Source: Lachnoclostridium sp. An181 (GTDB lineage Bacteria; Bacillota; Clostridia; Lachnospirales; Lachnospiraceae). From it: a stretch of DNA of 64,000 bases. Below the pieces are notes generated by a model, which was not told where the DNA came from, made no database searches, and saw nothing but the letters and a program-made list of their open reading frames with translations. The position numbers and the translations under genes were made by a program. Positions 5,768-41,131 of this stretch are shown here, piece by piece. The stretch's first letter is position 1; every line of letters starts with the position of its first letter. The stretch is from the NCBI RefSeq assembly GCF_002160325.1, contig NZ_NFKJ01000005.1:62001-126000 (forward strand), given 5' to 3'.

Positions 5768-5800
5768 GCGCAGCCCATTGTTATCCGCAATGGACTGCGC
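5768..5800 (-). terminator. Intrinsic terminator of the SPFH cluster
   Basis: A 13-pair stem (GCGCAGTCCATTG with CAATGGGCTGCGC, one G-U pair) and a 7-base loop are followed on the minus strand by TGTTTTATTTTT. It lies 55 bases beyond the stop of the last cluster gene. Confidence 0.8.
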
Positions 5801-20824: not shown

Positions 20825-23800
20825 GTTTCCATACATCTCATGTTGTTGTTTATCTCTAAATTGCGAGGAAGTAGCATTAAATACTGCTACGTTTCAATAC
20901 ATCTCATGTTGTTGTTTATCCACAGTCTTAAAAGGAGGAACCGGAATGGCATACGCGTTTCAATACATCTCATGTTGTTGTTTATCGTATTCTGTTATCT
21001 ATTTGAAGCTAAATAGATCGGTTTCAATACATCTCATGTTGTTGTTTATCGTCAGATCTACAACGTATATATAATGCTTTGGGCTAGTTTCAATACATCT
21101 CATGTTGTTGTTTATCTCAGATCTGCAACGTATATACAATGCGCTCGGATAGTTTCAATACATCTCATGTTGTTGTTTATCGATGATATTGAGAGTATCA
21201 ACTTCGCCGGGTACATGTTTCAATACATCTCATGTTGTTGTTTATCCCGCACCTTTCATAAGAATGGTCGGAAAATTATCATGTTTCAATACATCTCATG
21301 TTGTTGTTTATCATACTCTTTCTGTTATGTTCTCATGCGCGGACGTCCGTTTCAATACATCTCATGTTGTTGTTTATCTCATTATTTTAGCGTAAAATAT
21401 ACGCCTTTAGAGGCGTTTCAATACATCTCATGTTGTTGTTTATCGCAAACAAAAAGCCACAGTCCAAAAGCTTAATCCTTGTTTCAATACATCTCATGTT
21501 GTTGTTTATCTATACCGGCTTGAAATTGTATCAAGTCGCTAACCGTTTCAATACATCTCATGTTGTTGTTTATCAATTAGTTTCGTGCCCAACGGAACAA
21601 GAAGCCATGTTTCAATACATCTCATGTTGTTGTTTATCAGGCTTTTTGCTACTGAATCCGATTACATTGAATATGGTTTCAATACATCTCATGTTGTTGT
21701 TTATCTTTTCGGGAAATGATAAGCAAAGCACTTGCAAATCAGTTTCAATACATCTCATGTTGTTGTTTATCTGCAAAAGCATAACGGTGCGGTTCTATTA
21801 ACATTGTTTCAATACATCTCATGTTGTTGTTTATCAGATTATGACCACGTTGTTAGGAACAACCGTAGAAAGTTTCAATACATCTCATGTTGTTGTTTAT
21901 CACAACTGCATACAATAGGGCAAGCGCAGGAACGAGTGTTTCAATACATCTCATGTTGTTGTTTATCTTGACTTCCTTCTAGTAAAGCACTATACCGCCC
22001 AGGTTTCAATACATCTCATGTTGTTGTTTATCTATAATAATCACCTGCCTTATTCAATTGTTTAAAAGTTTCAATACATCTCATGTTGTTGTTTATCCAT
22101 GAGCAATAATAAATCAGAAAGGATAGAAAGAAGTTTCAATACATCTCATGTTGTTGTTTATCCTTGAAAGACGACCGTAATTATATAAGGCATAGCACTG
22201 TTTCAATACATCTCATGTTGTTGTTTATCACGTTGCAGATAGAGGCGCAGGCAAGTACACAAGAGTTTCAATACATCTCATGTTGTTGTTTATCGATAAT
22301 GGTAGCCAGGGTATGAAAAGAAAAGATTGTTTCAATACATCTCATGTTGTTGTTTATCACGCCTTCATATTCGTTCTCATAGGCAGCAGGATGTTTCAAT
22401 ACATCTCATGTTGTTGTTTATCTATAGCATAGCTGGCATGTTGTAGCGTGGCAAGGTGGTTTCAATACATCTCATGTTGTTGTTTATCTAGGAAGGTTCA
22501 CGTATCCAAATTCACTTTCACCGTTTCAATACATCTCATGTTGTTGTTTATCAATCCCTACAATGTGAAACGCATGGCAAAGTAACAAGTTTCAATACAT
22601 CTCATGTTGTTGTTTATCTTCCGCATCGTGTGAAAGCAGGTATCACACATAACAAGTTTCAATACATCTCATGTTGTTGTTTATCTACTCTCCTACTATT
22701 ACAGAAAACACAGGGAACGAGTTTCAATACATCTCATGTTGTTGTTTATCGTCAATTCAAGCAATCAGACATAGCACTGTCTCAAAAGTTTCAATACATC
22801 TCATGTTGTTTATCCGAGCGTATATGGGTGGCTATACCATTCCACAGCGTTTCAATACATCTCATGTTGTTGTTTATCTTCTGTCTGCCGTTTGATTGCA
22901 AGCGCAAGAAGTGTTTCAATACATCTCATGTTGTTGTTTATCCAGACGTGTATGAATCCCCGTCTCAGAAAGCAACGTTTCAATACATCTCATGTTGTTG
23001 TTTATCAAAAATGCTTACAATGCTTTGCAACCAATCTGATGGTTTCAATACATCTCATGTTGTTGTTTATCGCCGATTTTTTACAAAATAAAAACCGACA
23101 ATCATAGTTTCAATACATCTCATGTTGTTGTTTATCGACTATGTGCTGTGCCTACGGTTTCGTAACCTTTGTTTCAATACATCTCATGTTGTTGTTTATC
23201 CTTCCTCGGCCAACCGGACACGCAACACATAAAAGCGTTTCAATACATCTCATGTTGTTGTTTATCGGACGGATTAGCGATCCGATGCGTTACCATTACG
23301 CCAGTTTCAATACATCTCATGTTGTTGTTTATCTGGATTGATTGTATTTACTCTATCTACAAATTCTTCAGTTTCAATACATCTCATGTTGTTGTTTATC
23401 CGCGATGCAGACTGTAAAGAAGAACGCGATACCAGTTTCAATACATCTCATGTTGTTGTTTATCGTTCCATCAACAAAATTCCACACGTGCTGTACATAT
23501 GTTTCAATACATCTCATGTTGTTGTTTATCAGAGGTTGGATTTATGAATAAAAACTTAACGAGTTGTTTCAATACATCTCATGTTGTTGTTTATCGCACT
23601 GTAAATTAAGTAGATTACACCAATAATAAGGTTTCAATACATCTCATGTTGTTGTTTATCCCCCCTTCATTACGCGCGCGACCTGCGGAGTTTTTTGTTT
23701 CAATACATCTCATGTTGTTGTTTATCGCGATGTCTATTAGAGGGTATGGCATATCTGCCATATGTTTCAATACATCTCATGTTGTTGTTTATCGGATAGG

Positions 23801-24648
23801 GAGGATAGGTAAAATGAAAATTGTATTTAAGTTTCAATACATCTCATGTTGTTGTTTATCGAAAAGCCATACTAGCAATGGGGAACATGTCAAAGTTTCA
23901 ATACATCTCATGTTGTTGTTTATCATATTTCTCTTATTTCAGTAATTCTTTCATGCATAGGTTTCAATACATCTCATGTTGTTGTTTATCTGAAGTAGAA
24001 GGAAAAACAGTTGACCCATCCACCGGGTTTCAATACATCTCATGTTGTTGTTTATCAAATCATCCCCTCTGTCCGATAAAAAGTTTATCACGTTTCAATA
24101 CATCTCATGTTGTTGTTTATCAAAAACTTGGAATAGAAAAACCAGGGACATTTATAAAGTTTCAATACATCTCATGTTGTTGTTTATCCCGACAAAAGGC
24201 TGTTGGGATCGGACAGCAGGACAGCGTTTCAATACATCTCATGTTGTTGTTTATCGAGAACTTGAACAGTCCGGAACAGAACCAGGTGAGTTTCAATACA
24301 TCTCATGTTGTTGTTTATCAGTAAAAGAAATCGCAAAAGAAAAGAACATTAGAATGTTTCAATACATCTCATGTTGTTGTTTATCGGGAAGTACAAGTGA
24401 TACAAGCAAAGACTGGTACTTGTTTCAATACATCTCATGTTGTTGTTTATCAATTATGAATTGTTTGAATGATATTTGGCAGGCGGGTTTCAATACATCT
24501 CATGTTGTTGTTTATCCGTAACCAGAACCGGAACAGGGATAATCGTGGCAGAGTTTCAATACATCTCATGTTGTTGTTTATCGGATTTACTGTACCATAA
24601 TCAATAGCTAAATAGTATGTTTCAATACATCTCATGTTGTTGTTTATC
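20825..24648 (-). CRISPR. CRISPR array 1, 59 repeats and 58 spacers
   Basis: Direct repeats of 30 bases, written on the plus strand as GTTTCAATACATCTCATGTT followed by GTTGTTTATC; spacers are 33-37 bases. I counted 59 repeats. On the minus strand the repeat ends in ATTGAAAC, the usual 8-base crRNA handle of type I-B/III systems, so the array is transcribed leftwards. The leader is on the right (24649-24909) next to cas2. The leftmost repeat (20825) has one mismatch, as expected for the oldest end. Repeat 31 (22788) has lost three bases. Two adjacent spacers (21051-21086, 21117-21151) are related. The spacer number indicates long and active acquisition. Confidence 0.98.
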
Positions 24649-24909
24649 TAACGCATTTGCGCCATTTCTCCATTTCATTATCCCCGATTTCCCCTTATTT
24701 TTCAAGCTTTTTTCATATTTTTACCAGGCGGTGTCCCAAATTCCCGTCACTGTTTCACAATCCCTGATTTTCCTTGTATTTCCCGGCTTTGTGACCTTTT
24801 CTCCATTTTTCCGCCTGGTAAAAATTCTCTTATATTTCCCCTGAACAGCAAAACCATAACCTATTTTCTGCTATTATAACCCCTTCGTTACACCCCTCAT
24901 CCTCTCTGA
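24649..24909 (-). promoter_or_regulatory. Leader of CRISPR array 1
   Basis: AT-rich region between the last repeat and cas2. It shares with the leader of array 2 the repeat-adjacent TAACG, the block TTATTTTTCAAGCTTTT and a widely spaced inverted repeat TTTTTACCAGGCGG (24718-24731) / CCGCCTGGTAAAAA (24811-24824). It should contain the array promoter and the integration signals for Cas1-Cas2. Confidence 0.8.
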
Positions 24910-25200
24910 TCAAATCATCAGATCCTCACCGGTCTCCTTTCCTCCGTTTCCAAGGACCTCTTCACCAAACACACTGTCATTCATCAATTTAATAATACAG
25001 ACAAAATCCTCTTCTTTATTAATCACTTTCTTTAGATCATTGCGCAGACTGATAAATTTCGATGGCGTCATCTCTCCTCGAAACACAGATTTCTGATAGT
25101 GGGACAGATACTTTTTGCAGACTTTAAAAACCTTTTGTACCCTTTTTTCTCCCACATCATAAAACAAAAATGCATAATTATAATTTAACTGTTTTTTCAT
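24910..25200 (-). CDS. cas2: Cas2 spacer-integration subunit
   Basis: About 96 residues, MKKQLNYNYAFLFYDVGEKRVQKVFKVCKKYLSHYQKSVFRGEMTPS, with the Cas2 ferredoxin-like start (YDV followed by R..K..K.C..YL...Q.SVF.G.). Cas2 dimers bridge Cas1 dimers during spacer integration. I chose the ATG at 25200, six bases after AAGG; a Met two codons earlier is possible. It overlaps cas1 by a few bases and is the last gene of the type I-B operon, adjacent to the array 1 leader. Confidence 0.93.
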   Translation of the reverse strand: MKKQLNYNYAFLFYDVGEKRVQKVFKVCKKYLSHYQKSVFRGEMTPSKFISLRNDLKKVINKEEDFVCIIKLMNDSVFGEEVLGNGGKETGEDLMI

Positions 25201-26198
25201 TAACATCCTTCTTTCAATGAAAACGGAATAAATGGTTTTTCTTCCAAAATATTTTTGATCAATTTATAACAGTCCAGTTTCAATGCTGTGCGATAACTGA
25301 CTTTTCTTTTTAATTTCGGATGTGCAAACACACTCTCCATTCTCGCCTCAAACGCCTCAATAAATATTTTTCTTCCTTCTTCATTTAACAGACAGTAATT
25401 CACCCGTCTGTCAAAGTGTTTTGTCACCTGAAGTTTCCGGTTGTTTACCAGATCAAATATTGTCCGAAATACGATCGCTGGCTTAAATACCTCGCTTAAA
25501 TCCAGACTCAAAGAGAAACGTCCCTCTGACGGCTCGTGCAGAAAACTGATTCTTGCGTCCAGGTGGGTCTGGGAAATTGCGGATATTGTCTTTGTGTAAA
25601 GTAATGTATTTCCAAAGGATACCAGAGCATTCATCGGGTTGTCCGGTGGCCGCTTTACCCTTTTATTCATCACAAAATCTTCCGGGAGAAAATATTGGAA
25701 GTCATTATAAAATTTCATCCACACTTCTCCCTCAACTGCCAGCAATTCTTTAATTCCGGCTGCATTCTCCACCTGATCAAAAAATACATTTTTAATCCAG
25801 TCAATGGTTTCTTTTACTTCCTTTTTATTATGTTTATAGTAATGATAAAGTATCTCATAAATATTTTCTCCAATGCCCCGCACAATTGCCTTTGCGATTT
25901 CCATTCTGCGGTTCTGGAATGTTTCCACCTGTTTCACGAGCAGCCTGCCACTCAGATAATGATCCCTGGGATAAAATGTTCCGCTGTATCCTCCATAATA
26001 ATTAAAATAATGAACGATCACATGGTTCTGGGCAAGAAAATCCAGCAGTTTTGTGTTGATACTGACTTCATTCATACAATAAATCTCTTTTGTGTTCTCT
26101 ATTGGAATATACACGTTTTTCCCGTTTTTACGAAAACAGAGGGAATTATCTTTTCTGTTCAATTCTCCCATGGACATAATATATCTCGTACTTCCCAT
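25200..26198 (-). CDS. cas1: Cas1 integrase
   Basis: About 332 residues, starting MGSTRYIMSMGELNRKDNSLCF. The conserved catalytic region is visible: KRPPDNPMNALVSFGNTLLY, THLDARISFLHEPSEGRFSLSLDLSEVFKP, with the metal-binding His and Asp/Glu. Cas1 is the metal-dependent integrase that inserts spacers at the leader-repeat junction. The start at 26198 has AAGGTGAG upstream, while the longer frame begins inside this site. As the only Cas1 in the window, it probably serves both arrays. Confidence 0.95.
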   Translation of the reverse strand: MGSTRYIMSMGELNRKDNSLCFRKNGKNVYIPIENTKEIYCMNEVSINTKLLDFLAQNHVIVHYFNYYGGYSGTFYPRDHYLSGRLLVKQVETFQNRRMEIAKAIVRGIGENIYEILYHYYKHNKKEVKETIDWIKNVFFDQVENAAGIKELLAVEGEVWMKFYNDFQYFLPEDFVMNKRVKRPPDNPMNALVSFGNTLLYTKTISAISQTHLDARISFLHEPSEGRFSLSLDLSEVFKPAIVFRTIFDLVNNRKLQVTKHFDRRVNYCLLNEEGRKIFIEAFEARMESVFAHPKLKRKVSYRTALKLDCYKLIKNILEEKPFIPFSLKEGC

Positions 26199-26219
26199 AT
26201 TTCTCACCTTTTCTTTTGT

Positions 26220-26732
26220 TTAAATATAACAATACTCATAGTATGCGCATTTTTTACATTTCTGTTTATTCAGACATTCCGGAATTTTGTCCCATTCCAA
26301 CAGTTCCTCGATTTCCTGCAAATACGCTTGTAATTGTTTTTCTGTTTCCTCTGTCAGCTCTACATACAGCACCTTGCTGTCTTTTTTATTCTTTTCCGCA
26401 AACTCCAGGCGCCCTTTCCGAATGATCCCTTTGGATTTCAGCACACTCAGGTAATAGATCAGCTGCCATTTAGACGCCTCTACATCAGCATCTGACTTTT
26501 TGATTTCTGTGAGATATTCACCGCTGAGCTTATCCAATCTTATATTCTCAATTGCGATTTCCGTATTCTTACTCTCCTGTGCTTTTTGTTCATGAATCGC
26601 CTTGCCGATCTTCACTTCCTCACTGTTGTCTTCCAGGTTCAGTCTGTTTCCAAAAAGATAGCACTGTCTTTTACAATGAAAATAATAATTTACCAATGTC
26701 CCGTTTACTTTCACAATTTCACCGCCTGTCAC
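26220..26732 (-). CDS. cas4: Cas4 nuclease
   Basis: A 170-residue Cas4. Four cysteines of the iron-sulfur cluster are seen: YYFHCKRQCYLF near the start (one) and NKQKCKKCAYYEYCYI at the end (three). The RecB-type core reads GKAIHEQ, then LTEIKKSDADVEASKWQLIYYL. Cas4 trims prespacers and selects PAM-containing ends in type I-B adaptation. It overlaps the cas3 stop by 4 bases and precedes cas1. Confidence 0.93.
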   Translation of the reverse strand: MTGGEIVKVNGTLVNYYFHCKRQCYLFGNRLNLEDNSEEVKIGKAIHEQKAQESKNTEIAIENIRLDKLSGEYLTEIKKSDADVEASKWQLIYYLSVLKSKGIIRKGRLEFAEKNKKDSKVLYVELTEETEKQLQAYLQEIEELLEWDKIPECLNKQKCKKCAYYEYCYI

Positions 26733-29272
26733 AAAAATAATCCAAACTGATTTTCAAAACGATTTCTCTGAAAAACGCCGTTTTCAAAATACTCTTCCCC
26801 TTGTTCTATATAGAAAATATCCCCAATCCGGTCATCACTGTAAAATTCCTTCCATTTATTGACCTGATAGAGGAAATGATTCATTCTTGTTCTGATCTCA
26901 AATAACTTAACCGTCTTTTCCGCGTAGTCCATTTCCTCATTTTGCAACAATTTCACATATTCCTGCCATACTGCTCGTCCGTCCAAAATTTCTCCATTTT
27001 CCTCTTCAATGATACGTGCAAGAAATACAGAAACCAGGTTATTATTATCCGGAATCAGTTCCATTCTCTTTTCCACTTTCGGGAAGTTTAATCCGCCTAC
27101 CTCATCACGGAAAAATTTTTCCAGATTGTCTTCATTTTCTTTTTTTCCCCGCATCCTGATAGCATCCAAGATTTTTCCGTAATACAGGTTAAAATCTTTA
27201 GAAGATAATACTTCTTGCATCTCTTCATTTTGTAAGGTCAACTGTGCATCTGTCCGAAGATCATCATGATAAATGGCTCTTGCATCATCCAACTCAAAGA
27301 AATAAACCGTCCCTTTCTCTTTCCCCGACCTGTTTATTCTCCCCATAAACTGCTCTTCACTGTCTAATTTGGAACAATCCTTATATCCGATATCCATGTC
27401 AATATCCACTCCTGCTTCTACAACCTGCGTTGCGACCAGGATTACACCCTGTTCCTTTTTTACTTTTTGAATAATCTGTTTTCTCTCCTGAATACTGGTA
27501 TCTCCTGTCATCAAAAGGATCTCCACTTCTTCCGCTACAGAAAGGATCTCAAAGAATTCATAGGCATGCGCTTTAGAGATAAACTCAATCAATATATTTC
27601 TGCTGCCATCCTGATTTTCACTTACATGCTCTGCCAGTTCTTCTAATGAGAGGTTTCTCTTCAAAAGACTATAATCTGCCTGAACCCGATTTCTAAAAAT
27701 CGGATGTTCAAAATACTTTTTTCTGTCCAGAATAAGTGGAACCGCGTCTTCTTTATTCTCTGTCAGGACTTCCAGATTCGGCAAGGTTGCTGACATAATT
27801 ATGATTTTGATATTCAAAAGTTGGGCATACCCTTTTAAAAAATGAATGATTTCTCCCCATATTCTGATATTGTAACTTTGAATTTCATCCAACACGATCA
27901 CAGAATTACAGATCTGATGGAATCCGAATAAGTCCTGTTTCTGTTTGCCAAACAATGTCCGGAACAAGCTGACATGTGTGGAGAGAACAATCGGATAATT
28001 CAAAAACTGCCTGTCCAGCAAAATCTTCTCATAATTTTTCTTTTCTTCCTCTCCATAATTCTCCTCGTCGTCTTTCATCTTTACCAGAGAATTCACGACT
28101 GCCACCTTGGACAAGATATCCTCGCGCCCTTCAAACACTGTTTCCATAGAGGACATGTTTTGTTCTACTAAGGTGTTAAATGGATAGATATAGAAAATTT
28201 TATTTATTTTCGGGCATTCTCTGACCAGCTTTAAACTTAGATTCATCGCAGTATTGCTTTTCCCGCTCCCCGTCGGAGCTTCCAGGTAAAAAACTGCATT
28301 TTCTTTTTTTTCCTCCAGCACCCGCTCTGCCTCCAGAAATAATTCAGTCCTTAAAGGATTGATTTTCTGTTTCTGCAATTCTTTCTGATCCATTGGATAA
28401 CATTCTTTTTCGTATTTTCGGATGGATTGCTGAACCTCTGTTTTTTCGTATACATCATATATTTCATTCCAGTCGCACTCATTCCCGAAATTTTGGATTT
28501 CTGTTCCGTTCATAAATTCCGAAGTCGCATAGTAATCCGCGGCCGTGAGCAGGGAATACAAAAGTCTGGTATACGCATACAAAATCACTTGTTTTTCGGA
28601 AGGAAGTTCGCTCGTCTTTAACTTTTTTCTTATGGAAAGCTTTCCTTCCTCATCGGTTGTGTTTAGCCTCCACATTTTCAGCCATTCCACTACATCCGCA
28701 CCAACGCCTGCAGGCTCCCCGTCATCTTCATATTCATAACTTATCAAATAGTCCCGGAATTTTTCCATTGCACTGTGATGTCTGGCAATCAGAAAGGAAT
28801 GCACATACACCAAATCTTTCAGTTGTTTTCTGATCTTTGCGTCTTCCACCACCATGATACGTTTCAAAAAGTAATCCATATAGATTGTTGCAGAAATCAA
28901 TGAATGTTTACTGCCAACATTTCCCCCTGGCTGCAACTCTTTTTTCCACACATGCGCCATCTTTTTCCACTGATAGAGTGGATTTATTTTCCCAACGTCG
29001 TGAAATGTCACAACATTTGCCGCCATCTCTTCATATATAAAGGTCACTTGTTGTTCTTCCGTCTCCAGATACCTCTCCTGGAACCTTTCAAAAACATCAT
29101 ACAACTCTTTCTTTTCCATAAGCATCAGAAAATATTTTTGACTAAGCGCTGTATGCTCCAGCAAAGTTTCTCTTTTTTCTCCTCCCCCTTCTTCTTTTCT
29201 ATGCGCATAACAATCCAAAACAAGTGATTCTATCTCTTCCAAGTTCAAAAATTTCTCTTTCCAGTTTCTCAT
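26729..29272 (-). CDS. cas3: Cas3 HD nuclease-helicase
   Basis: About 847 residues. The HD nuclease domain comes first (LEHTALSQ at 39, the HD pair at 91-92 in FHDVGKINPLYQW, KHSLISA at 122, RHHS at 164). The superfamily 2 helicase has Walker A EAPTGSGKS (331-339), DEIQ (462-465), SAT (494-496) and the C-terminal QVVEAGVDIDMD / QFMGRINRSGK motifs. Cas3 is recruited by Cascade to unwind and degrade target DNA. I chose the ATG at 29272 because of GGAGGAATTT. A terminator hairpin separates it from cas5, unlike the tight coupling elsewhere in the operon. Confidence 0.96.
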   Translation of the reverse strand: MRNWKEKFLNLEEIESLVLDCYAHRKEEGGGEKRETLLEHTALSQKYFLMLMEKKELYDVFERFQERYLETEEQQVTFIYEEMAANVVTFHDVGKINPLYQWKKMAHVWKKELQPGGNVGSKHSLISATIYMDYFLKRIMVVEDAKIRKQLKDLVYVHSFLIARHHSAMEKFRDYLISYEYEDDGEPAGVGADVVEWLKMWRLNTTDEEGKLSIRKKLKTSELPSEKQVILYAYTRLLYSLLTAADYYATSEFMNGTEIQNFGNECDWNEIYDVYEKTEVQQSIRKYEKECYPMDQKELQKQKINPLRTELFLEAERVLEEKKENAVFYLEAPTGSGKSNTAMNLSLKLVRECPKINKIFYIYPFNTLVEQNMSSMETVFEGREDILSKVAVVNSLVKMKDDEENYGEEEKKNYEKILLDRQFLNYPIVLSTHVSLFRTLFGKQKQDLFGFHQICNSVIVLDEIQSYNIRIWGEIIHFLKGYAQLLNIKIIIMSATLPNLEVLTENKEDAVPLILDRKKYFEHPIFRNRVQADYSLLKRNLSLEELAEHVSENQDGSRNILIEFISKAHAYEFFEILSVAEEVEILLMTGDTSIQERKQIIQKVKKEQGVILVATQVVEAGVDIDMDIGYKDCSKLDSEEQFMGRINRSGKEKGTVYFFELDDARAIYHDDLRTDAQLTLQNEEMQEVLSSKDFNLYYGKILDAIRMRGKKENEDNLEKFFRDEVGGLNFPKVEKRMELIPDNNNLVSVFLARIIEEENGEILDGRAVWQEYVKLLQNEEMDYAEKTVKLFEIRTRMNHFLYQVNKWKEFYSDDRIGDIFYIEQGEEYFENGVFQRNRFENQFGLFL

Positions 29273-29288
29273 AAATTCCTCCAATTGC

Positions 29289-29320
29289 AAAAAGCCCCGC
29301 AAAAAGAACGGGGCTTTTTT
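29289..29320 (-). terminator. Terminator-like hairpin between cas5 and cas3
   Basis: Stem AAGCCCCG/CGGGGCTT with a 9-base loop, flanked by A and T runs so it can work in both directions. It begins directly after the cas5 stop and ends 17 bases before the cas3 start. It may limit readthrough from the Cascade genes into cas3-cas4-cas1-cas2. Confidence 0.75.
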
Positions 29321-29321: not shown

Positions 29322-30080
29322 TCAATAAAAAATTAAAGTTTTATCCGCCGTTCTGTACACGGCAGCATCTTGAATATGCAGTTTAAAATCTGTGAATTGA
29401 AAAGTTTCATAAATATAGAGATTTGTATATGCATCCAGCCCTGCAGGCAATGTCTCTTCATATTTAAATCCATCCAGTTCCTCATCTTCATCGTCATCCG
29501 GCAATACGATTTTCGCCGCTCGTTTTGGAAAAAGACAAGACAGATGAATTTCCGGTTCTTCATTTTTTTTAAGCTCCACAATTGCTGCCTTAGTAATATC
29601 AGCCATGTGATCATTTTTGCCCAAATACGGTATATAGATGCATCTCCGGTTTCTCACAAACTCTGCAAGCTTTTCTGCACCTTCGCAATCCAGAAGTACG
29701 TAAATCTCCCACTTGGGATTTTCCAGCCACTGCTCTTTTACAATCAGATTTCCACCCTGTTCCTGAGAAGCATATCCTACAGAATTGTTGAAATACTGCA
29801 CTTTCTTGGAAATATATCCTTTTTTATTTTTGGGGACAACAGAAACTTTTATCTCTTTGAGTTTCTCATAGAATTCCGGGAATTCTTCTGTTATGGCAGC
29901 TTTTTTCCCTTTGCTTTTCCACTCTTTCTGGCTATATCCCGAGTATCCCAAAATAGCTCCAAACACTCCAAGAAGTGCAACTTTATGGATCTGTCCGAAT
30001 GTAAAATAATAATAGCTGTTTACCTCAGGCTTTTTAAAGAACGCATTTCTTCCGCTCAGTGTAAACTTCAGCGCCCTCAT
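29322..30080 (-). CDS. cas5: Cas5 of type I-B Cascade
   Basis: A 252-residue Cas5 of the Hmari/I-B group: MRALKFTLSGRNAFFKKPEVNSYYYFTFGQIHKVALLGVFGAILGYSG, with the RAMP fold and the HKVALLG(V/I)xGAIxG region. Cas5 binds the 5' handle of the crRNA and caps the Cas7 filament next to Cas8. It is encoded 3 bases after cas7. Confidence 0.93.
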   Translation of the reverse strand: MRALKFTLSGRNAFFKKPEVNSYYYFTFGQIHKVALLGVFGAILGYSGYSQKEWKSKGKKAAITEEFPEFYEKLKEIKVSVVPKNKKGYISKKVQYFNNSVGYASQEQGGNLIVKEQWLENPKWEIYVLLDCEGAEKLAEFVRNRRCIYIPYLGKNDHMADITKAAIVELKKNEEPEIHLSCLFPKRAAKIVLPDDDEDEELDGFKYEETLPAGLDAYTNLYIYETFQFTDFKLHIQDAAVYRTADKTLIFY

Positions 30081-30083: not shown

Positions 30084-31025
30084 CTACACCTCTTTTTGCG
30101 TAATAATATTAAAATACTTTGCCTGTTTTACATAAGAATTCAGTTTTGTTGTATACGGATTATAGTAAATCTCTATATTACGAATCTTATCCTGCAGTTC
30201 ATCCAGGAAAAATCCTTCACAGCCAATGGTAATCAGATTTTTTTCCTCACCTTTTTCAAATGTAATGTACTCAGACAAATTTGGAAGGTACAAATCTTCT
30301 TCTGTTTCTACAAACATTGCAAATTCATTTTCGCATCCTTCCTTTGCATTTGTGGCAAAAGCAGTTGCAGACACAAGGGCTGTCCTCTTAAAATTCTGAT
30401 AATCTTCTTCCGTATAACCTTCCGTAACTCCCAGTTTTTCCAGTTCTTTGTATGCAAGTGGATTGATGACAAACGGATAAAAATAATGTGCCTCATTGCT
30501 TGTAATCTTTGTTCCAAGCGTAGAGTTTTTTGCCTCTCCTTTTTCTTTATCATCTTTTGTCCCATCTCTGAACGGGGAAAGAATCTGCTGCTCTTCAGCA
30601 GTTGTTCCTTCATATTTATTGAATCCCTGTCCAAACTGCACAGCTCCTGTGATTGATATATTGCTACCGCTCTCCGCAAAGGTCGCGCCAAAGTTTTTTA
30701 CATCCACAGCTGACATAAGATTTTTCAGAACTTCTCTTGCATCCGCTTTCTTTGACAAATCGTCCACCGCAAATAAAGCCTCATAACGGTCTTTCAATGT
30801 ACATGGGATCAATTTCCCATCATCTTTTTCCGAGAATTTCATGGATTTGATATATAAAACCTTTTTTCCTTCGTTGTCCCACATTTTTTTCATCGGATAT
30901 TTCAGAGCCTTATCGCTGCCAAACACGGTACCGTCTGAAATTGTTTTCGGAAATCCCGTAAAATCAGCATTCCAGTTCGCCATAATTGAAGATATTCCAA
31001 GTACACCATATACTCTTTTATTCAT
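30084..31025 (-). CDS. cas7: Cas7 (Csh2-type) backbone of type I-B Cascade
   Basis: A 313-residue Cas7: RVYGVLGISSIMANWNADFTGFPKTISDGTVFGSDKALKYPMKKMW, the start typical of Csh2/Cas7 in I-B. Further conserved segments are FGATFAESGSNISITGAVQFGQGFNKYEGT and SNEAHYFYPFVINPL. Cas7 forms the helical backbone along the crRNA spacer. It overlaps cas8b by 8 bases, so translation is coupled. Confidence 0.95.
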   Translation of the reverse strand: MNKRVYGVLGISSIMANWNADFTGFPKTISDGTVFGSDKALKYPMKKMWDNEGKKVLYIKSMKFSEKDDGKLIPCTLKDRYEALFAVDDLSKKADAREVLKNLMSAVDVKNFGATFAESGSNISITGAVQFGQGFNKYEGTTAEEQQILSPFRDGTKDDKEKGEAKNSTLGTKITSNEAHYFYPFVINPLAYKELEKLGVTEGYTEEDYQNFKRTALVSATAFATNAKEGCENEFAMFVETEEDLYLPNLSEYITFEKGEEKNLITIGCEGFFLDELQDKIRNIEIYYNPYTTKLNSYVKQAKYFNIITQKEV

Positions 31026-32766
31026 TTACACTTTCCTCCTTGTTGGATTCATAAATCAGGTTATCTGCAATATAACCGGCTACCATGACATCCTGCCTCA
31101 TCTTTCCTTCCGGACGATAATTAAACACCAGATAATAAAGGTTATTAAATCGTGAGCCGTTTTCCTGAATTCTGTAATTATATTTCATAAAGAACTCTAA
31201 AAGTTTTTCTTTTAACCTCTCATCACGTTTAAGATTAAAAAATGGATTTGCCAAAGAATGCATCTTGTCCTTTGCCTTATTTAGAGAAATAAAATATCTG
31301 AGCAGCTGCCCTGCCGCAAAATAGTATTCCTCATCACTTTCAATGGCACTGTTCCCTTTCTGTCTTATCTTGTTCCGCAATTTTTCTATGATCTCCTGGT
31401 ACAATACCGCCATCTTTTTTTCACCTCCAAAATATTCCTTCAGAGAAATCTTCAGATTCCACTGTTTTTGTGCTTTTGAAACAGAATTATTTTTGATCCA
31501 ATGCAGCATAAGATTTTTGCATACCTGATCCAAAACAGCTGCAATCTGGTCCTCTTTGCCCTTATACAGCCATGCAAAAATACTCTCCCTTGCAAACATC
31601 AAGTTTCGTGCAATTTCTCCTTCCACCGCCAATTCATCCGCCGGTGTAAAATAGTTGGAAATCAACCAGTTGGAAAACAGCACCTCATTGAGCATCCCCT
31701 GCAATTCTCCGACATTTCTGTAATCCTTATAAATTTCATCCGGATCAGGAGTCTGCAGAATATTCTGATACGAAAACTTTTTCTTCAATCGAAACCGATA
31801 ATCCACTACGGAGTCTTGATGATGAATTTCCAGCTCTTTTCCTTTTTTTATCTGGAGAAAGAATCCGGTAAAATTTTGCTTGATCATATCATCTTTTCCA
31901 CAAGGCCAGATCTTTCCGGACTCTGCATCAAAAAATACGTTTGTCTTTCCTGCTGCCGCCTTACTCATCAGATAATCAAAAAACTTCTTCTGCAGCAATG
32001 CCTCATTGGAGGAAATCAAATACGGAACAATCAACTTTCTGCTTTTATGTTCCAAAAACGGTTTCTTGGAATTCATCCCCATATTGTCATTTGGCAGTCC
32101 AAAAATCTCTCCGTCAATTTTTATGTTATAATCATTTTTATTGAAAATCTTTGTGACCAGATACCTGTTATTCTCTCTGATGTAAATATTGTCATCATCT
32201 TCAAAAAAGATTTTCAAATATCCTTTTCCACTCAGTTTCACTCCAAGTTCTTCCAAAGAAAAAATATGCTCCAAAATCCACTTTTTATTGCTCAAAAGCT
32301 TTTCCTGATCTACTTCTCCGACTTTTTTTGCAATGTAATCGTACATCTCCCTGTCTTTCGGTTTTATATATTTTTCCCTTGGATTTTCCAGCACGTGATA
32401 ATACCGCTCAATTGCCTCGTCATTCAATTTTCCATTCTGAAAACTCTCCTGTTTCACCCAAAACGAAAGGTAATTATTTGAATGAATTACTTTCTTTGGA
32501 TCCTGGGGCTTGTCCATACTGACAAGCTGGCTGTAATAATCCAGAAAGCAGATCCTCGCATAATTCAACGGCTCATTTTCAAGCTTTCTGGTTTTTTTGT
32601 TCATTTTAATCTCAGCCTGACTCTGAATCTTCCCGTCTCTGTCGACAATCAAATACAATCCATCAGAGGGGATATAATTGTCCAGCACCAGCTGATCCGG
32701 ATTCCCGGTTCGCTCCCCGACTCTTTTTAATTCCTTTTCAAATATTTCCAGACAATCTTTTAACAC
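31018..32766 (-). CDS. cas8b: Cas8b (Csh1-type) large subunit
   Basis: 582 residues, Csh1/TM1802-like: MLKDCLEIFEKELKRVGERTGNPDQLVLDNYIPSDGLYLIVD and LNYARICFLDYYSQLVSMDKPQDPKKVIHSNNYLSFWVK. Cas8b recognises the PAM and, by its C-terminal helical part (or an internal product), supplies the small-subunit function. The start is a GTG at 32766 behind AGGAGGTGAA. A metal-binding CxxC pair is not obvious. It follows cas6 by about 30 bases. Confidence 0.9.
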   Translation of the reverse strand: MLKDCLEIFEKELKRVGERTGNPDQLVLDNYIPSDGLYLIVDRDGKIQSQAEIKMNKKTRKLENEPLNYARICFLDYYSQLVSMDKPQDPKKVIHSNNYLSFWVKQESFQNGKLNDEAIERYYHVLENPREKYIKPKDREMYDYIAKKVGEVDQEKLLSNKKWILEHIFSLEELGVKLSGKGYLKIFFEDDDNIYIRENNRYLVTKIFNKNDYNIKIDGEIFGLPNDNMGMNSKKPFLEHKSRKLIVPYLISSNEALLQKKFFDYLMSKAAAGKTNVFFDAESGKIWPCGKDDMIKQNFTGFFLQIKKGKELEIHHQDSVVDYRFRLKKKFSYQNILQTPDPDEIYKDYRNVGELQGMLNEVLFSNWLISNYFTPADELAVEGEIARNLMFARESIFAWLYKGKEDQIAAVLDQVCKNLMLHWIKNNSVSKAQKQWNLKISLKEYFGGEKKMAVLYQEIIEKLRNKIRQKGNSAIESDEEYYFAAGQLLRYFISLNKAKDKMHSLANPFFNLKRDERLKEKLLEFFMKYNYRIQENGSRFNNLYYLVFNYRPEGKMRQDVMVAGYIADNLIYESNKEESVNE

Positions 32767-32798: not shown

Positions 32799-33506
32799 TT
32801 AAATCCATCGAAAATTGCAGTATCCATATCCTCTGCTGTTCATCTCTCCAATCCCGGTCCCCAGCAAAAAATAGGCCAATTCCTGCGCCATCTCATTGTC
32901 TGCAATCTGCAAATTCAATTTGTCACCCAAAAGCCGGATTTCTTTATACTCCACTCCAATTGGTTTCTTATTCATAAACCGGATTCCAGTATACAATTGA
33001 AAATCTTCTTCAATCCTCTCTTCGATATATGCCTGATATTTTTTCACTGCATTTTCAAATAATCTTCTCTCATACTCTTCCAGCTCCATGGTATTTCTCC
33101 AATATCCGCCATCCGATTTCATAATTACCGGGAGCAAACTGTAAATCTCCCCGATTATTTTTTTCGGGACTATTCGAATTTCCGCAGTCAATCCCTTCAT
33201 TTTCGGAGTGATATGGTCCTTTAAAACCTTCAAAAAGTACTCTGCGAGTTTTGCATCTACCGTCCGCAAAGTTACGGTATAAATGTGATCAGCCTGGTAC
33301 ACCCCATTGGTCTCCAATGGATAGAACCCGGAAAAACAATACTGTTTAAATTGATTTTGGTTGTGGAGTTCAAGCAGATCCTCGCGCTTTGCAAGTGAAG
33401 AGTCAATGAAACCAGCTATCGTACGCATGGTTTGAGGATATGGTATGTCTTGCAAAATGTAGGTTTTGATCTTTAATTCATAGACTTTTGTTTTTGTTTG
33501 TTGCAT
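32799..33506 (-). CDS. cas6: Cas6 crRNA-processing endoribonuclease
   Basis: A 235-residue RAMP protein: MQQTKTKVYELKIKTYILQDIPYPQTMRTIAGFID at the start and the C-terminal glycine-rich loop GTGIGEMNSRGYGYCNFRW characteristic of Cas6. Cas6 cuts within the repeat and leaves an 8-base ATTGAAAC handle. It is the only Cas6 in the window and heads the type I-B operon, so it very likely also processes array 2 for the type III-B complex. Confidence 0.92.
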   Translation of the reverse strand: MQQTKTKVYELKIKTYILQDIPYPQTMRTIAGFIDSSLAKREDLLELHNQNQFKQYCFSGFYPLETNGVYQADHIYTVTLRTVDAKLAEYFLKVLKDHITPKMKGLTAEIRIVPKKIIGEIYSLLPVIMKSDGGYWRNTMELEEYERRLFENAVKKYQAYIEERIEEDFQLYTGIRFMNKKPIGVEYKEIRLLGDKLNLQIADNEMAQELAYFLLGTGIGEMNSRGYGYCNFRWI

Positions 33507-33597: not shown

Positions 33598-33750
33598 AAC
33601 ATCAAAGGGGATAGTTATTGTTTATCTAATAAATCTTCCCGCAGCAGTTGCCGCATACTCATTTCAATACAGCTAATGTTGTTGTTTATCCCAGTCTGCG
33701 CATATGCTTGTCCAGTCTTCAACCGCGTTTCAATGCATCCCATGTTGTTT
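33598..33750 (-). CRISPR. Decayed CRISPR mini-array upstream of cas6
   Basis: Three degenerate repeats: a half repeat ending GTTATTGTTTATC (to 33627), a near-complete one at 33661-33690 with three mismatches, and a truncated one at 33727-33750 (GTTTCAATGCATCCCATGTT). The intervening segments are 33 and 36 bases, the normal spacer length. The repeat type is that of array 1. No leader is visible, so it is probably dead. Confidence 0.75.
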
Positions 33751-33787
33751 CCAAGCGTTTTCCAATTAAAGTTATATTCGATAAATC

Positions 33788-34018
33788 TTATATTTCTGCT
33801 TGAACAATACGTCCAAAATTTATCTCATCTTTAAAAAGATCATACACATATTCTGAACTTTCCAAATATAAACCGGTTTCTTTATCTTGAAGTTTCTCAA
33901 AGACTTTTGAGTTATAAAACTTGTTCATAGCCTCATCATATTCTATATTATGATCTGAAGAAAACATATCAACAATATCCTGAACTATATATTCAATCAA
34001 CTGTTCCTGCTTACCCAT
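33788..34018 (-). CDS. Small antitoxin-like protein, DUF3791-related
   Basis: 76 residues with IEYDEAMNKFYNSKVFEKLQDKETGLYLESSEYVYDLFKDE. The same motif (FEEATMKFYKSETYKTLQNTENGLWAESAEYIADRYFEDI) occurs in the paralogue at 36786-37031, so the two flank array 2. It starts 1 base after the DUF3990 stop, as third gene of the cassette DUF3791-DUF3990-this gene. An immunity or antitoxin role is inferred from context. Confidence 0.6.
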   Translation of the reverse strand: MGKQEQLIEYIVQDIVDMFSSDHNIEYDEAMNKFYNSKVFEKLQDKETGLYLESSEYVYDLFKDEINFGRIVQAEI

Positions 34019-34019
34019 A

Positions 34020-34738: not shown

Positions 34739-34866
34739 CCAAAACCTCCTTTTCTTTAACAAACGATTGTTTACATCGTAAGCTCTCCATTTTTCTCTTA
34801 CCAATTCTCTTTATATAATTCTTAATTTCTATGTTTTTACTTCACTTTCAAATTCATACCACTTCT

Positions 34867-35055: not shown

Positions 35056-35127
35056 CATTGCAAATTCTTTGTACAATGTTACATTGAACATAGTCGCTGT
35101 AAATAGAGGATTATTATCTTTATTAAA

Positions 35128-36467
35128 AATAGAAATCATCTCATGTTGCTATTTATCGTAATTGTTTTGAGGGTGTATGTTCCCTCTGCCGGTTTCAATA
35201 CATCTCATGTTGCTATTTATCCTTTACAGATCTGAAAAAAGCAGGAACAGCAACAACGTTTCAATACATCTCATGTTGCTATTTATCATATTCCGGCCTG
35301 AGATGCTCTGAATATCCATCAATGTTTCAATACATCTCATGTTGCTATTTATCAGATGTATCACGAAACAAAATGTTAAAATCAAAATGTTTCAATACAT
35401 CTCATGTTGCTATTTATCATCTATTGCATTTAAAAATGCAACAATCGATAAAGAGTTTCAATACATCTCATGTTGCTATTTATCGTGGCTCCGAGCACAA
35501 GTGTATTGCTAATGGACAGGTTTCAATACATCTCATGTTGCTATTTATCATGCCAATGATTATGAATTACATCATCATTGGTTAGGTTTCAATACATCTC
35601 ATGTTGCTATTTATCGCGTTATATGCCTCTTTAAATTTTGTAGAAAACCAGTTTCAATACATCTCATGTTGCTATTTATCATCGAGGCAATTAAATTAGA
35701 CTGTGATGATAGCCCGTTTCAATACATCTCATGTTGCTATTTATCATGTGAATTTGACTACAGTGTTATTTCCAGTATCATGTTTCAATACATCTCATGT
35801 TGCTATTTATCACAATCGTACTGATTCCTAATATTCCGGCAAAACTGTTTCAATACATCTCATGTTGCTATTTATCATCGTTCAGACCACCCCATAGCCT
35901 TGGCAAACTTATATGTTTCAATACATCTCATGTTGCTATTTATCCCAAGAATTGCGAATAAATACCGCTCACTCCAATACGTTTCAATACATCTCATGTT
36001 GCTATTTATCGATTATGGAGATGTATGTTATTACAGATTTGATCAGTTTCAATACATCTCATGTTGCTATTTATCTTTTCCGCCGGGGCGTATCATATGG
36101 GATAAATGCAAGTTTCAATACATCTCATGTTGCTATTTATCAGTGTAATAACTTGGAGGAGTGGGAGATAGAAAAACGTTTCAATACATCTCATGTTGCT
36201 ATTTATCAAATTACCTTGTTTCCTTTAATCTCAGACGGAGCGTTTCAATACATCTCATGTTGCTATTTATCGTTTTGTTATGTACCCGCGTTTCATCCAT
36301 TCTTCGGTTTCAATACATCTCATGTTGCTATTTATCACCTCAGTCAGTGCAATCTGATCGCCGGGAGAAGTGTTTCAATACATCTCATGTTGCTATTTAT
36401 CCTGCTTGTGTTCGCAGAACTGTCAAAAAACTTTTACGTTTCAATACATCTCATGTTGCTATTTATC
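35128..36467 (-). CRISPR. CRISPR array 2, 21 repeats and 20 spacers
   Basis: Repeats of 30 bases, written on the plus strand as GTTTCAATACATCTCATGTT followed by GCTATTTATC. They differ from array 1 at two positions only. Spacers are 34-38 bases. I counted 21 repeats including a degenerate leftmost one (35128-35157). The minus-strand repeat again ends ATTGAAAC, and the leader is on the right (36468-36785), so transcription and growth have the same orientation as array 1. It lies just downstream of the type III-B operon and has no cas1, cas2 or cas6 of its own. Confidence 0.98.
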
Positions 36468-37179: not shown

Positions 37180-38643
37180 CTAAAATATATTTTCTATAAA
37201 ATTAATAAGACATTTTACTTTTTCAAACAAGTTTATCTTCGGTAAATCTACAAATAAAGCAATTACTGCTATTACCACCCCAATTATAGCCCATTTATTC
37301 GCTATTGTAGTTAATCTTAGACTAGCACTCACATTCGCAACTTCATACAAACCTGACATTTCCTGATTCAAAATAGCCTGCTCTTCATTAATCAATAACT
37401 GTTGTTGAAAAAGATGATATAGTTCTATTCCCTGTTCCTGACTGGAAATCTCCAAGATCATAAAATGATTCTGAAAACTGACATAATCCTCCTGCATTTT
37501 CATAATCTTTTCTGCCTTTTCTGGAGTTATTTTTCCTGAATCATTTGTCTCTTCTTCTACAATTTCCCCTGCTCTTTCTGAAAAAAGTATCAATCCTTGT
37601 TTTTGCGCCAAAGTCAAGGACAGCATATAAAAATACTCTTCCACAAATGGCTTTACTACTGTATTTTTAATTACATTGCTCTCTTTACTCTCTTTACTCT
37701 CTTTGCTCTCTTTACTCTCCTCATCTGTAATACAAGTCAGGGAATAATTTGTACATGCATACAAAGTTCCACAATCAGACCATCGAAAGTATCCTGCCCG
37801 TTCAAAAAGTTCTTCTCTCATCTTATCATTCTGACACTCGCAGTCACCGCTATCCACATATATGATGCTATAAAGTAGTTTTTGGATATTGGATTTACTA
37901 TATTTTTTTTGCTTTATCTGCTCAGAAAGCCATTTGTCTCTTATCAAACACGTCAAAAACATCCTGTCATCAGCTGTAGGCTCCAAATCTTTCCATTGTT
38001 CATTTTCTTTTTCATTCAAATCACCTGACAGTAGACTTTTTAGAAATGTAACTGGCTGTATTAACTCTTCATATTTCTCAGTTTTAATTTTTTCTCGGAA
38101 ATTTTGGATATTCTCAGTTTTATTAACCCTATTTTTGATTCCCAATTGTTCTGCACATAAAATTATACCTTCATCTGGCTCATCAGGAATAAATGGCAAA
38201 AAGGTTCTTCTTCCCAAATTATTAATTGATTTTATATCCTCAATACTACGATATTTAAAATTCAATACTCGTATCGATAAAATCCCAACCCCAAAATCAT
38301 ATAAATGCAATTCAATTTTATCAATGGGCAATTCAAAAGTTTTCTTGATTTGCTCATCTATTTTTGCTTCGATAAAATAGTTATACTCTCCCTGATCATC
38401 CATTTTATATTGATATATTTCGCATTTTGAACTGTTTTCGTCAAAAAATATTTTTCTCGCTTTTTTACTCAAATACTGATGCAGCATAAAACGCTCTTTA
38501 CTATTTTTCCACTCAGTTTCCCGTACCCATCTTCCAGAAGATAATAAATCCTTTCTTACTTTATCATGATTATCTTTCACATATGTAAATGGCCACGAAA
38601 AAATATGAATACTTTTCGCCTCATAATAATTCTTGTCTTCCAT
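37180..38643 (-). CDS. Type III-B associated CorA-like membrane protein (candidate effector)
   Basis: About 487 residues, last gene of the III-B operon. A large soluble N-terminal part (IHIFSWPFTYVKDNHDKV; LHLYDFGVGILSIRV; RRTFLPFIPDEPDEG) is followed by a long helix (MQEDYVSFQNHFMILEISSQEQGIELYHLFQQQLL) and one strong transmembrane segment near residue 451-467 (WAIIGVVIAVIALFV), then an amphipathic tail. This is the plan of CorA-like proteins associated with type III-B CRISPR, although a second helix and a GMN motif are not visible. An in-frame (KES)n repeat lies mid-protein. I chose the start at 38643, right after the exonuclease stop, behind AAGGAAAG. Function as a signal-gated membrane effector is inferred. 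Confidence 0.6.
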   Translation of the reverse strand: MEDKNYYEAKSIHIFSWPFTYVKDNHDKVRKDLLSSGRWVRETEWKNSKERFMLHQYLSKKARKIFFDENSSKCEIYQYKMDDQGEYNYFIEAKIDEQIKKTFELPIDKIELHLYDFGVGILSIRVLNFKYRSIEDIKSINNLGRRTFLPFIPDEPDEGIILCAEQLGIKNRVNKTENIQNFREKIKTEKYEELIQPVTFLKSLLSGDLNEKENEQWKDLEPTADDRMFLTCLIRDKWLSEQIKQKKYSKSNIQKLLYSIIYVDSGDCECQNDKMREELFERAGYFRWSDCGTLYACTNYSLTCITDEESKESKESKESKESNVIKNTVVKPFVEEYFYMLSLTLAQKQGLILFSERAGEIVEEETNDSGKITPEKAEKIMKMQEDYVSFQNHFMILEISSQEQGIELYHLFQQQLLINEEQAILNQEMSGLYEVANVSASLRLTTIANKWAIIGVVIAVIALFVDLPKINLFEKVKCLINFIENIF

Positions 38644-38644
38644 T

Positions 38645-39172
38645 TTATCTTTCCTTTGCAAATATTTTTTTCCAGATCATTACCATTAATTCTACATCAT
38701 ACATAGCATTATGTGTCTGCTCTTCTCCTATATTATGCACCAGTTCCTTTCTGTTTTTTAACGGATCAATTCCTTTCGCCAATAATAGACTGCTTAAATC
38801 CACGAGAGGATACGGTGCATGAAACATTCTCTCCACACGATTCAATTCTACACATTTTTGAAAAAGTCTGCATTCCACCGGATAGCATACATCCGCAACC
38901 GCATATGCATGCTCGGCATATTTCATCCATATGTTCCAGGTTTTTTCCAAGAGTTGTTTTTCATCTTCAACCTCTTCATATCCTCCTATTACTGGAAGGA
39001 CATGAGCCTTTGTCCATTTGTCTGTCACAATCAAATTTTCCTTTTTGACTCCCAGATATCTGCGTTCTATTTCTTTCATTTCCCGATTAAGAATGAGCAT
39101 TGCCACTGTTAAAAACCTGCCATAAAGTCCATCTGTTTCAGCATCAACAAAAACATAATATTCTCTATCCAT
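38645..39172 (-). CDS. DEDDh 3'-5' exonuclease of the III-B operon
   Basis: 175 residues with all four DEDDh positions: D10 and E12 in FVDAETDG (Exo I), D94 in AVADVCYPVE (Exo II), and H154/D159 in HNAMYDVELM (Exo III). Family members degrade RNA, DNA or small nucleotides. Lying between cmr6 and the CorA-like gene with 3-4 base junctions, it probably destroys the signal molecule or processes the crRNA/target. In CorA-containing type III loci such a phosphodiesterase is a recurrent partner. Confidence 0.85.
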   Translation of the reverse strand: MDREYYVFVDAETDGLYGRFLTVAMLILNREMKEIERRYLGVKKENLIVTDKWTKAHVLPVIGGYEEVEDEKQLLEKTWNIWMKYAEHAYAVADVCYPVECRLFQKCVELNRVERMFHAPYPLVDLSSLLLAKGIDPLKNRKELVHNIGEEQTHNAMYDVELMVMIWKKIFAKER

Positions 39173-39175
39173 ATC

Positions 39176-39952
39176 CTACCTCTTTTTCTCAAAAACTTCT
39201 CTTTTCACAGGAGTTTTAAATTTTCCAAATCCTACATTTGTTTTTGCTCCAACTCCCATATCCAGAATAATTCTTAAGAATAATTCTTTTTTCTGTTCCG
39301 CTGTAACTCTTTGATCTCCAGACACATAATCGGAAAGCAAAAAACCAAATTTGAATTTTACGCCAGGTTTTACTTTTATCAAATTTATAGGAATCGGGTT
39401 CTGATATATCTTTTTATGCGGAGTGATATACTCAAGCTCCATCCACTTATTGCCTTTTCCTCCAACAGGATATGCTCCTAAAAACACATCTGAATTGTCA
39501 AATATCTGCGTTTCCAAATCATCAATTTTTATATTTTCACAATGGATTTCCTGTAAAATAGACTTTATATATTCTTCGTATTCTTCTTTCTCATTTTCCG
39601 GTCTTCCTCCCGGAAAATAACTGCGCAAAATCCCTTTTAGAGATGACCCTGGATAGTATGGAATTCCCGTCACATAATCAAAAGTAAATCCACACTTGAT
39701 TACTTCTTTCTCATTTAAGTCATGTGCTCCGCCTGTGCCAATTAAAAGCCCCGGATAGGTTGTCTCCAATTCTATGGTCTCAAATCCTGGTATACTTTCC
39801 ATTCCCTGAAAAAATCGGATCTTTTTAAACTGAAACTTTGTAATTTCCTTGTTCTTTTCTTCAAAATTTGGTGATGTTTTTAAATCTTCCATATATTCTA
39901 TATTGAATATATAATTCATATTTCGAGATCTGTATCTCTTTTGATCATTCAT
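39176..39952 (-). CDS. cmr6: Cmr6 (Cas7-like) subunit
   Basis: About 258 residues. The RAMP signature is GFTFDYVTGIPYYPGSSLKGILRSYFP and, near the end, DMGVGAKTNVGFGKF, as in Cmr6, which caps the Cmr filament at the crRNA 3' side. The start at 39952 follows GGAGGGGC; the frame from 39967 begins in this site. It is coupled to cmr5 and the exonuclease. Confidence 0.9.
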   Translation of the reverse strand: MNDQKRYRSRNMNYIFNIEYMEDLKTSPNFEEKNKEITKFQFKKIRFFQGMESIPGFETIELETTYPGLLIGTGGAHDLNEKEVIKCGFTFDYVTGIPYYPGSSLKGILRSYFPGGRPENEKEEYEEYIKSILQEIHCENIKIDDLETQIFDNSDVFLGAYPVGGKGNKWMELEYITPHKKIYQNPIPINLIKVKPGVKFKFGFLLSDYVSGDQRVTAEQKKELFLRIILDMGVGAKTNVGFGKFKTPVKREVFEKKR

Positions 39953-39966
39953 TTTTTGCCCCTCCA

Positions 39967-40389
39967 TTACTCCTCTGTTAATTTATAGAGGTTCATAGCC
40001 AATTTTAACGCAATCGCTGCATTGATCATTTCTTCTTTTGCCCGTTTTGGAGCTGTCATATCTATATATTCTAGCAAATCCTTACACTTTTTCTCATTCT
40101 CATGCGTTCCACCACTGATTTCTTTTACTTCTCCATGCTCTTTTAAAATCAATTCAATTGCTTCCATTAACTTACTTCTTTTCACTGCACTATTTCCATC
40201 ATTAAGGAAAAAACACACTGCTGCCAGAAGACTTCCTGTTGCCACCGCAGCACCAAAAGATGCTATCTGACTTTGATATGCCTTTTTTATTTCTGTTTTC
40301 CCAGTGTCCGGATTTTTCTTTGCAATTCCTGAATCTTGCAAACTCTTATATGCATATGCGATTTCTTCATCAATTACTTTTTTATTCAT
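39967..40389 (-). CDS. cmr5: Cmr5 small subunit (Cas11)
   Basis: About 140 residues, mostly helical: MNKKVIDEEIAYAYKSLQDSG; KAYQSQIASFGAAVATGSLLAAVCFF; NAAIALKLAMNLYKL. This is the pattern of Cmr5 (R/KxYxsxvrslpalIxxnGL..al.F). Cmr5 forms the inner belly filament of the Cmr complex. The ATG at 40389 follows AAGGAGAG and overlaps the cmr4 end by 8 bases. Confidence 0.85.
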   Translation of the reverse strand: MNKKVIDEEIAYAYKSLQDSGIAKKNPDTGKTEIKKAYQSQIASFGAAVATGSLLAAVCFFLNDGNSAVKRSKLMEAIELILKEHGEVKEISGGTHENEKKCKDLLEYIDMTAPKRAKEEMINAAIALKLAMNLYKLTEE

Positions 40390-41131
40390 CTTTTTTCTCT
40401 CCTTCAACTGTTACTTTACAGAATCCATAACCAATAGACGCATTTCCTCCAAACTGCACTACTTTTCCGTCAATGCCTTTTTTTAATTTTTCCAAAGAGT
40501 CCTGATCAGAAATAACTGCAAATGTAAAAATAGAACCATGCGGTACAACTTCTTCATACCAAAGATTTACGCTCTTCCCGTTTTCCAGTTTATTACGCGC
40601 CATCACTGGAAGATCGATCGAATTCATGTCGCTTTCCGATACAAGATAAATTTCTTTTTCATCATATTTTATTTTCTTTGTTAAAAGAATTCCCTCTGCC
40701 TCTTCATTTCTATCCGCTTTTTGATCGTTACTTTCTATGTGTTTTTTCACTTGGTTTGTAAATAACTCCATCTTTTCATTATAAATTTTCAACATTGTAT
40801 CTGTTGTCAAAAGGTAATATGCTTTGTCACCTGCAGATGCACGGGCAGGGCGCGCCAACATATCTGCCTGCATGATCTTAAGACTTCCCGGCTTTCCATC
40901 CTCATCTGCTCCCTTTCCAAACAACTGGTTCACAATCTCGTTGTCCCAATCTTTTCCTTTCTTTTTTTCAAAAAACTCTCTTAAAGCACCTTTCAAGCCT
41001 GATGAATGAATCGTAGGAAATCCTGTTACCGGATCTTTCTCTACTTCATTATCAATGATATTGTAATTAACTTCTCCATTTCCCACGTGAAGATTTGTAA
41101 TACATTCCAGTTTAATTACGATTGATGACAT
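40382..41131 (-). CDS. cmr4: Cmr4 (Cas7) backbone and target-RNA slicer
   Basis: 249 residues: IVIKLECITNLHVGNGEVNYNIIDNEVEKDPVTGFPTIHSSGLKGALREFF, then SLKIMQADMLARPARA and the C-terminal GGNASIGYGFCKV. The Asp in the IIDNEVEKDP loop corresponds to the metal-dependent RNA cleavage residue of Cmr4, so slicing every six bases is expected. It overlaps cmr3 by 16 bases. Confidence 0.93.
   Translation of the reverse strand: MSSIVIKLECITNLHVGNGEVNYNIIDNEVEKDPVTGFPTIHSSGLKGALREFFEKKKGKDWDNEIVNQLFGKGADEDGKPGSLKIMQADMLARPARASAGDKAYYLLTTDTMLKIYNEKMELFTNQVKKHIESNDQKADRNEEAEGILLTKKIKYDEKEIYLVSESDMNSIDLPVMARNKLENGKSVNLWYEEVVPHGSIFTFAVISDQDSLEKLKKGIDGKVVQFGGNASIGYGFCKVTVEGEKKDE

Follow-up and report, generated by a model that had tools for sequence, protein, structure and literature searches.

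Two adjacent CRISPR spacers encoding one peptide most likely derive from a single coding site in two diverged phages

Background

Several described systems bear on the locus examined here. In the type I-B system of Clostridioides difficile the PAM is YCN, and TCN is weaker than CCN for interference, as stated in the accessible part of PMC8406132. The part of PMC8482600 that we drew on lists TCN as a I-B PAM and reports that I-B and type III systems frequently have arrays and adaptation in common, the coding-strand bias of I-B spacers being 55%. A type III-B module that uses type I-F guides against escape phages has been described in Marinomonas (excerpted text of PMC5576922), and a 10-nt seed, formed by the first guide positions, is given for type I-B in the section consulted of PMC4326828.

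We analysed a CRISPR locus of Lachnoclostridium sp. An181, a member of the Lachnospiraceae (assembly GCF_002160325.1; genome of 2,771,487 bases). The whole stretch of DNA under study, called the window throughout, is 64,000 nucleotides long and corresponds to positions 62001-126000 of contig NZ_NFKJ01000005.1. Like the system of C. difficile (available portion of PMC8406132), this locus has the I-B gene set, Cas1-Cas2-Cas4 and a TCN motif, which falls within YCN; in contrast, its best matches carry TCN only, with no CCN among them. As in Marinomonas (excerpted text of PMC5576922), a III-B module accompanies a type I system that faces diverged phages, although that work was experimental and concerned type I-F, whereas here the likeness is one of gene context alone.

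Results

A complete type I-B operon adjoins the leader of array A1 (Table 1), in which cas8b, cas7, cas5, cas3 and cas6 lie in one operon and the adaptation genes cas1, cas2 and cas4 are of type b. Three arrays are present, and a single cas1-cas2-cas4 set was identified, that within the I-B operon; a scan of ten proteins at the cmr locus and beyond it revealed no second one. This cmr/cas10 locus, of type III-B, lies 12-20 kb from A1. Its cas10 has just 520 codons, and a 175-codon ORF within the locus (38645-39172) is without a PADLOC match.

Table 1. Features of the CRISPR region, in window positions
Feature	Position	Strand	Remarks
CRISPR array A1	20825..24648	-	59 repeats of 30 nt, 58 spacers; transcribed right to left
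Spacer A1.3	21051..21086	-	36 nt; older of the pair, further from leader; plus-frame SDLQRIYNALG
Spacer A1.4	21117..21151	-	35 nt; newer of the pair; same peptide SDLQRIYNALG
Spacer A1.5	21182..21216	-	next newer than A1.4; portal match (phrog_533)
Leader side	24649..24860	-	conserved at right end of A1, A2 and A3
cas2 (Cas2b)	24910..25206	-	
cas1 (type I-B)	25200..26207	-	
cas4	26220..26732	-	
cas3 (helicase and HD nuclease)	26729..29302	-	Cas3b 4.5e-289
cas5 (type I-B)	29322..30080	-	Cas5b 8.8e-55
cas7 (type I-B)	30084..31025	-	Cas7b 7.5e-40
cas8b	31018..32766	-	Cas8b 2.3e-187; no NCBIfam match
cas6	32799..33506	-	Cas6b 1e-96
CRISPR array A3	35192..36467	-	variant repeat; 20 repeats, 19 spacers
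Type III-B locus	37180..44874	-	cmr1, cas10, cmr3, cmr4, cmr5, cmr6 and CorA-like gene

The A1 repeat, GTTTCAATACATCTCATGTTGTTGTTTATC, occurs in 59 copies, 57 of which are identical; the exceptions are one substitution in the copy at 20825 and a 3-nt loss in the copy at 22788. The latter (22788-22814) measures 27 nt rather than 30, and the array continues on both sides of it. Array A2, on the same contig and outside the window, has the same repeat and holds 24 spacers. Reverse-complemented, the repeat terminates in ATTGAAAC, which we take to be the usual crRNA 5' handle. Together with the position of the leader at the right ends, the ATTGAAAC handle indicates that the arrays are read from right to left and that newer spacers lie to the right.

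Several sequences in and around these arrays are recorded as observations in their own right. To the left of A3 (33658-35190), about 1.4 kb of small ORFs lie between two degenerate repeats, near 33660 and 33730, and a partial repeat near 35140, which looks like an older array split by an insertion. A 1261-codon ORF (15846-19631) contains a threefold 39-nt repeat rich in cysteine codons (18135-18256). The fecal 'phage' record MT836941.1 (L024) carries an A1-type repeat outside any array (3383-3412, 4 mismatches in 30), with a poorer copy (9 mismatches) 52 bases upstream of it (3331-3412 for both) and, as a neighbour, a 900-codon ORF that by eye resembles the cell-wall hydrolase of a conjugative element. 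Such a solitary repeat might act as a decoy.

Spacers A1.3 and A1.4 are each bounded by perfect 30-nt repeats and align without gaps, 29 of 35 bases being equal, which amounts to a divergence of about 17% if the site is a homologous one. All six differences are synonymous in a single plus-strand frame, fall at codon positions 3, 3, 3, 1, 3 and 3, and include a two-base leucine change, so that the alignment, the six silent differences and the shared peptide SDLQRIYNALG described in the original prediction were reproduced in full. None of the five remaining frames gives equal open peptides from the two spacers. When six random substitutions were placed on the first spacer, with success defined as all changes being synonymous in an open frame, in any of the six frames, this outcome arose in 71 of 200,000 trials under uniform substitution and in 222 of 200,000 under a transition bias. 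An all-against-all comparison of 101 spacers (58 from A1, and 24 and 19 from the two sister arrays, a few degenerate array-end units being excluded) returned this as the sole similar pair, with a score of 17 against 7 for the runner-up. On the leader side, which in type I is the PAM side, the two guides start at the identical base, as expected if one PAM fixed both spacers; their far ends differ by one base, A1.4 being the shorter.

Other spacers of the arrays match one broad group of related tailed phages and prophages. Spacer A1.5 agrees at 32 of 35 positions with a prophage portal gene that lies in a different genome of the family, all three differences being synonymous; in this search of relatives at most two candidates were scored per genome, and there were matches in at least 3 of 395 genomes, its own included. 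Related phage contigs and prophages were gathered starting from that portal gene and, as they were collected through a spacer match, the sample leans to this phage group. The 101 spacers and 101 reversed-spacer controls were then compared with 67 loci totalling 1,011,888 bases, some of them near-duplicates or unrelated contigs, and 11 of the 101 spacers exceeded the best control (0.72). Portal genes account for A1.5, A3.18 and, in a portal relative, A2.21; the terminase large subunit for A1.56 and A1.23; the start of a head-tail adaptor gene for A1.1; a primase for A1.50; and families of unknown function for A1.54, A3.5 and A1.38. The eleventh, A2.6, has a weak match near a gene start and, by gapped blastn (E 0.1), matches the start of an antirepressor gene in five Ruminococcus gnavus phages. 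Phages related to the matched ones infect Roseburia, Blautia and others. Inside ORFs, 44 of the 66 mismatches of the eleven spacers are synonymous, as are 26 of 30 for the best six. Spacers and known phages thus often differ silently here, and within the array the pair presents the same picture. One portal gene family is targeted by all three arrays at three different sites (A1.5, A3.18 and A2.21), the spacers lying at 21182-21216 and 36337-36371 of the window and the third site at 2132-2165 of locus L009. A further match, of A1.52 to what by eye is a kinase-like host gene (28/31, genome G445), was set aside as probable chance.

These matches also define a motif. On the plus strand of the array, the triplet to the right of the best match is NGA, equivalent to a 5'-TCN PAM, in 10 of the 11 mapped spacers; with a GA frequency of 0.065, as found in seven of the loci, the probability is about 1e-11. 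The motif stands on the crRNA 5' side of the protospacers, as in type I-B. Counting phages added later, 11 of 14 spacers have TCN, a figure that falls to 9 of 14 when the two ties are scored as lacking it. The best match of A2.6 is without TCN, and next to its match in the R. gnavus phages stands TGA; for A1.56 and A2.21, other contigs contain matches of equal quality with TGG and TAA to their right, and the motif is absent for A1.0 and A2.13, which score level with the control. Among later additions to the phage set, which had no control, a better A1.50 match is followed by TTA and that of A3.13 (26/35) by TAA, while those of A2.1 (30/38) and A1.19 (26/35) are both followed by AGA. Lesser matches are often without TCN, as diverged homologs would be.

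For the pair itself, no protospacer was found in the viral_contigs or genome_contigs collections, in 396 other genomes of the family or in phage records, and a search of both spacers and the peptide against phage and prophage sequence likewise found none. A degenerate pattern for DLQRIYNALG gave 0 matches in viral_contigs, 0 in genome_contigs and 0 in the 396 genomes. Shorter or relaxed patterns returned, in turn, 11 stretches, 1 (among those 11), 1 and 2, 4 genome contigs, and 7; these were short frames, or longer frames with at least one residue changed, and by eye none had a tie to the phages of the array. The nearest, a 161-codon frame with ELQRIYNALG in a Bacteroidaceae MAG (L059), agrees with A1.4 at 25 of 35 bases and looks spurious as a frame; two other loci, L124 and L129, presumably resemble tape-measure genes and are not counted as targets of the pair. 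With at most two mismatches, two further family genomes matched, and the backwards control also matched two. With at most three, the genome itself gave nothing beyond the two spacers and ten phage records gave 0 matches. Neither tblastn of the doubled peptide nor blastn of the array against phage records returned anything for the pair, and a match in the plasmid collection belonged to another spacer. A PHROGs search with the X-padded peptide had no match, and BLOSUM scans of the collected phage and prophage loci yielded no convincing peptide.

Discussion

Spacers A1.3 and A1.4 most likely go back to a single coding site, homologous in two diverged phages. The original prediction had proposed the same coding site in two diverged phages: the coding site and the two diverged sources stand on the spacers themselves, while the phage origin comes through the other spacers of the arrays. 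Because the pair's own protospacers were found in no collection searched, its phage origin, gene and PAM are inferred. We infer that its targets are phages of the same broad tailed group, PAM-bearing and cut by type I-B. The account that we consider probable as a whole is that the local type I-B adaptation machinery (Cas1-Cas2-Cas4) took up the two spacers on separate occasions, that both would come from a protein gene of two related phages, at one and the same PAM-defined protospacer, and that both would direct the I-B Cascade/Cas3 complex to phage DNA.

The two units are adjacent, as a tandem duplication would leave them, and one might suppose that a single spacer unit was duplicated within the array and then mutated. 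All six changes are synonymous, however, the spacers differ in length by one base, and 57 of the 59 repeats, the flanking ones among them, are unchanged, which leaves too little time for a single spacer to have changed six times. Copying followed by mutation is very unlikely, to the point that we regard its probability as practically negligible, and the earlier statement that the spacers were not copied from each other holds on the strength of the synonymous pattern and the intact repeats. Two sites in one genome would equally account for separate acquisitions, if a phage or other element carried two diverged copies of the gene. Divergence confined to silent positions is presumably easier to obtain between orthologs in related phages than between such paralogs, and no record searched, the array itself excepted, held even one full copy of the peptide; we hold this reading to be highly improbable. 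A further question is which effector the guides serve. The claim that the crRNA would pair with the coding-sense strand was borne out: with the leader at the right end and the repeat handle as found, the minus strand is the one that gives the crRNA, and the guides would be complementary to the mRNA of the SDLQRIYNALG frame if that frame is the gene. This orientation would allow the nearby III-B complex to use them, and such use is plausible, the more so as I-B and type III systems often share arrays and adaptation (consulted part of PMC8482600) and III-B can employ type I guides against escape phages (excerpted text of PMC5576922). The stronger proposition, that the guides serve mainly III-B (Cmr/CorA) and that selection for mRNA pairing kept the pair, has to contend with the fact that A1, its leader and its repeat adjoin the I-B operon, that a PAM motif stands beside the mapped spacers, and that by longest ORF 4 of the 11 mapped guides cannot pair with mRNA against 7 that can, a split too small to show or exclude an orientation bias. 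We judge it distinctly improbable, and on the same three grounds the assertion that the orientation was as needed for RNA targeting by type III was not upheld. Operon adjacency and the TCN PAM point to I-B rather than type III, and the pair is best read as a product of the local DNA-cutting type I-B system, which it most likely also serves.

Within the preferred account of two I-B acquisitions, a causal link between the two may be added: A1.3 would have partly recognised the diverged phage and thereby triggered uptake from the same PAM site. Priming usually takes spacers from the region surrounding the primed site, which counts against this link. Against the target of A1.4, the A1.3 guide would have mismatches at positions 3, 6, 8, 9, 15 and 27, so that it probably gave little protection against the second phage. 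Four of the six lie in the first ten of 35 guide positions, where the I-B seed is placed (consulted section of PMC4326828), with a hypergeometric chance of about 0.04 by hand arithmetic, and in a 58-spacer array the two members of a pair would be neighbours by chance in 3.4% of cases. With about 5,200-5,800 PAM sites per phage of 40-45 kb, independent sampling is expected to give just 0.01 to 0.08 same-site pairs if 11 to 30 spacers come from one phage group, but 0.3 to 1.0 unlinked pairs if 58 to 101 do; a single pair would thus be no surprise were most spacers drawn from one group, and would be notable were few of them. According to the accessible part of PMC8406132, earlier literature contained no acquisition data for a bacterial I-B system. 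Primed re-acquisition is a sub-case that we regard as possible if unlikely. The fuller sequence of events, in which a phage lineage escaped through the silent near-seed changes (3, 6, 8 and 9) and priming retook the same protospacer, placing the new spacer alongside the old, seems to us quite unlikely. Adjacency and the placement of the mismatches are weak hints of escape and primed re-acquisition. In the literature we recognised no paper on same-site re-acquisition or on near-identical neighbouring spacers, which does not imply that there is none.

Conclusions

The pair is genuine, an ordinary trace of repeated infection within known CRISPR biology that calls for no new mechanism. On present evidence it makes a neat example from nature. 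Such a pair reveals the origin of its spacers in a coding site, together with the reading frame, without any phage genome, and tells that a diverged form of one target returned. If re-acquisition of the same site driven by priming were true, it would show how arrays keep pace with drifting phages.
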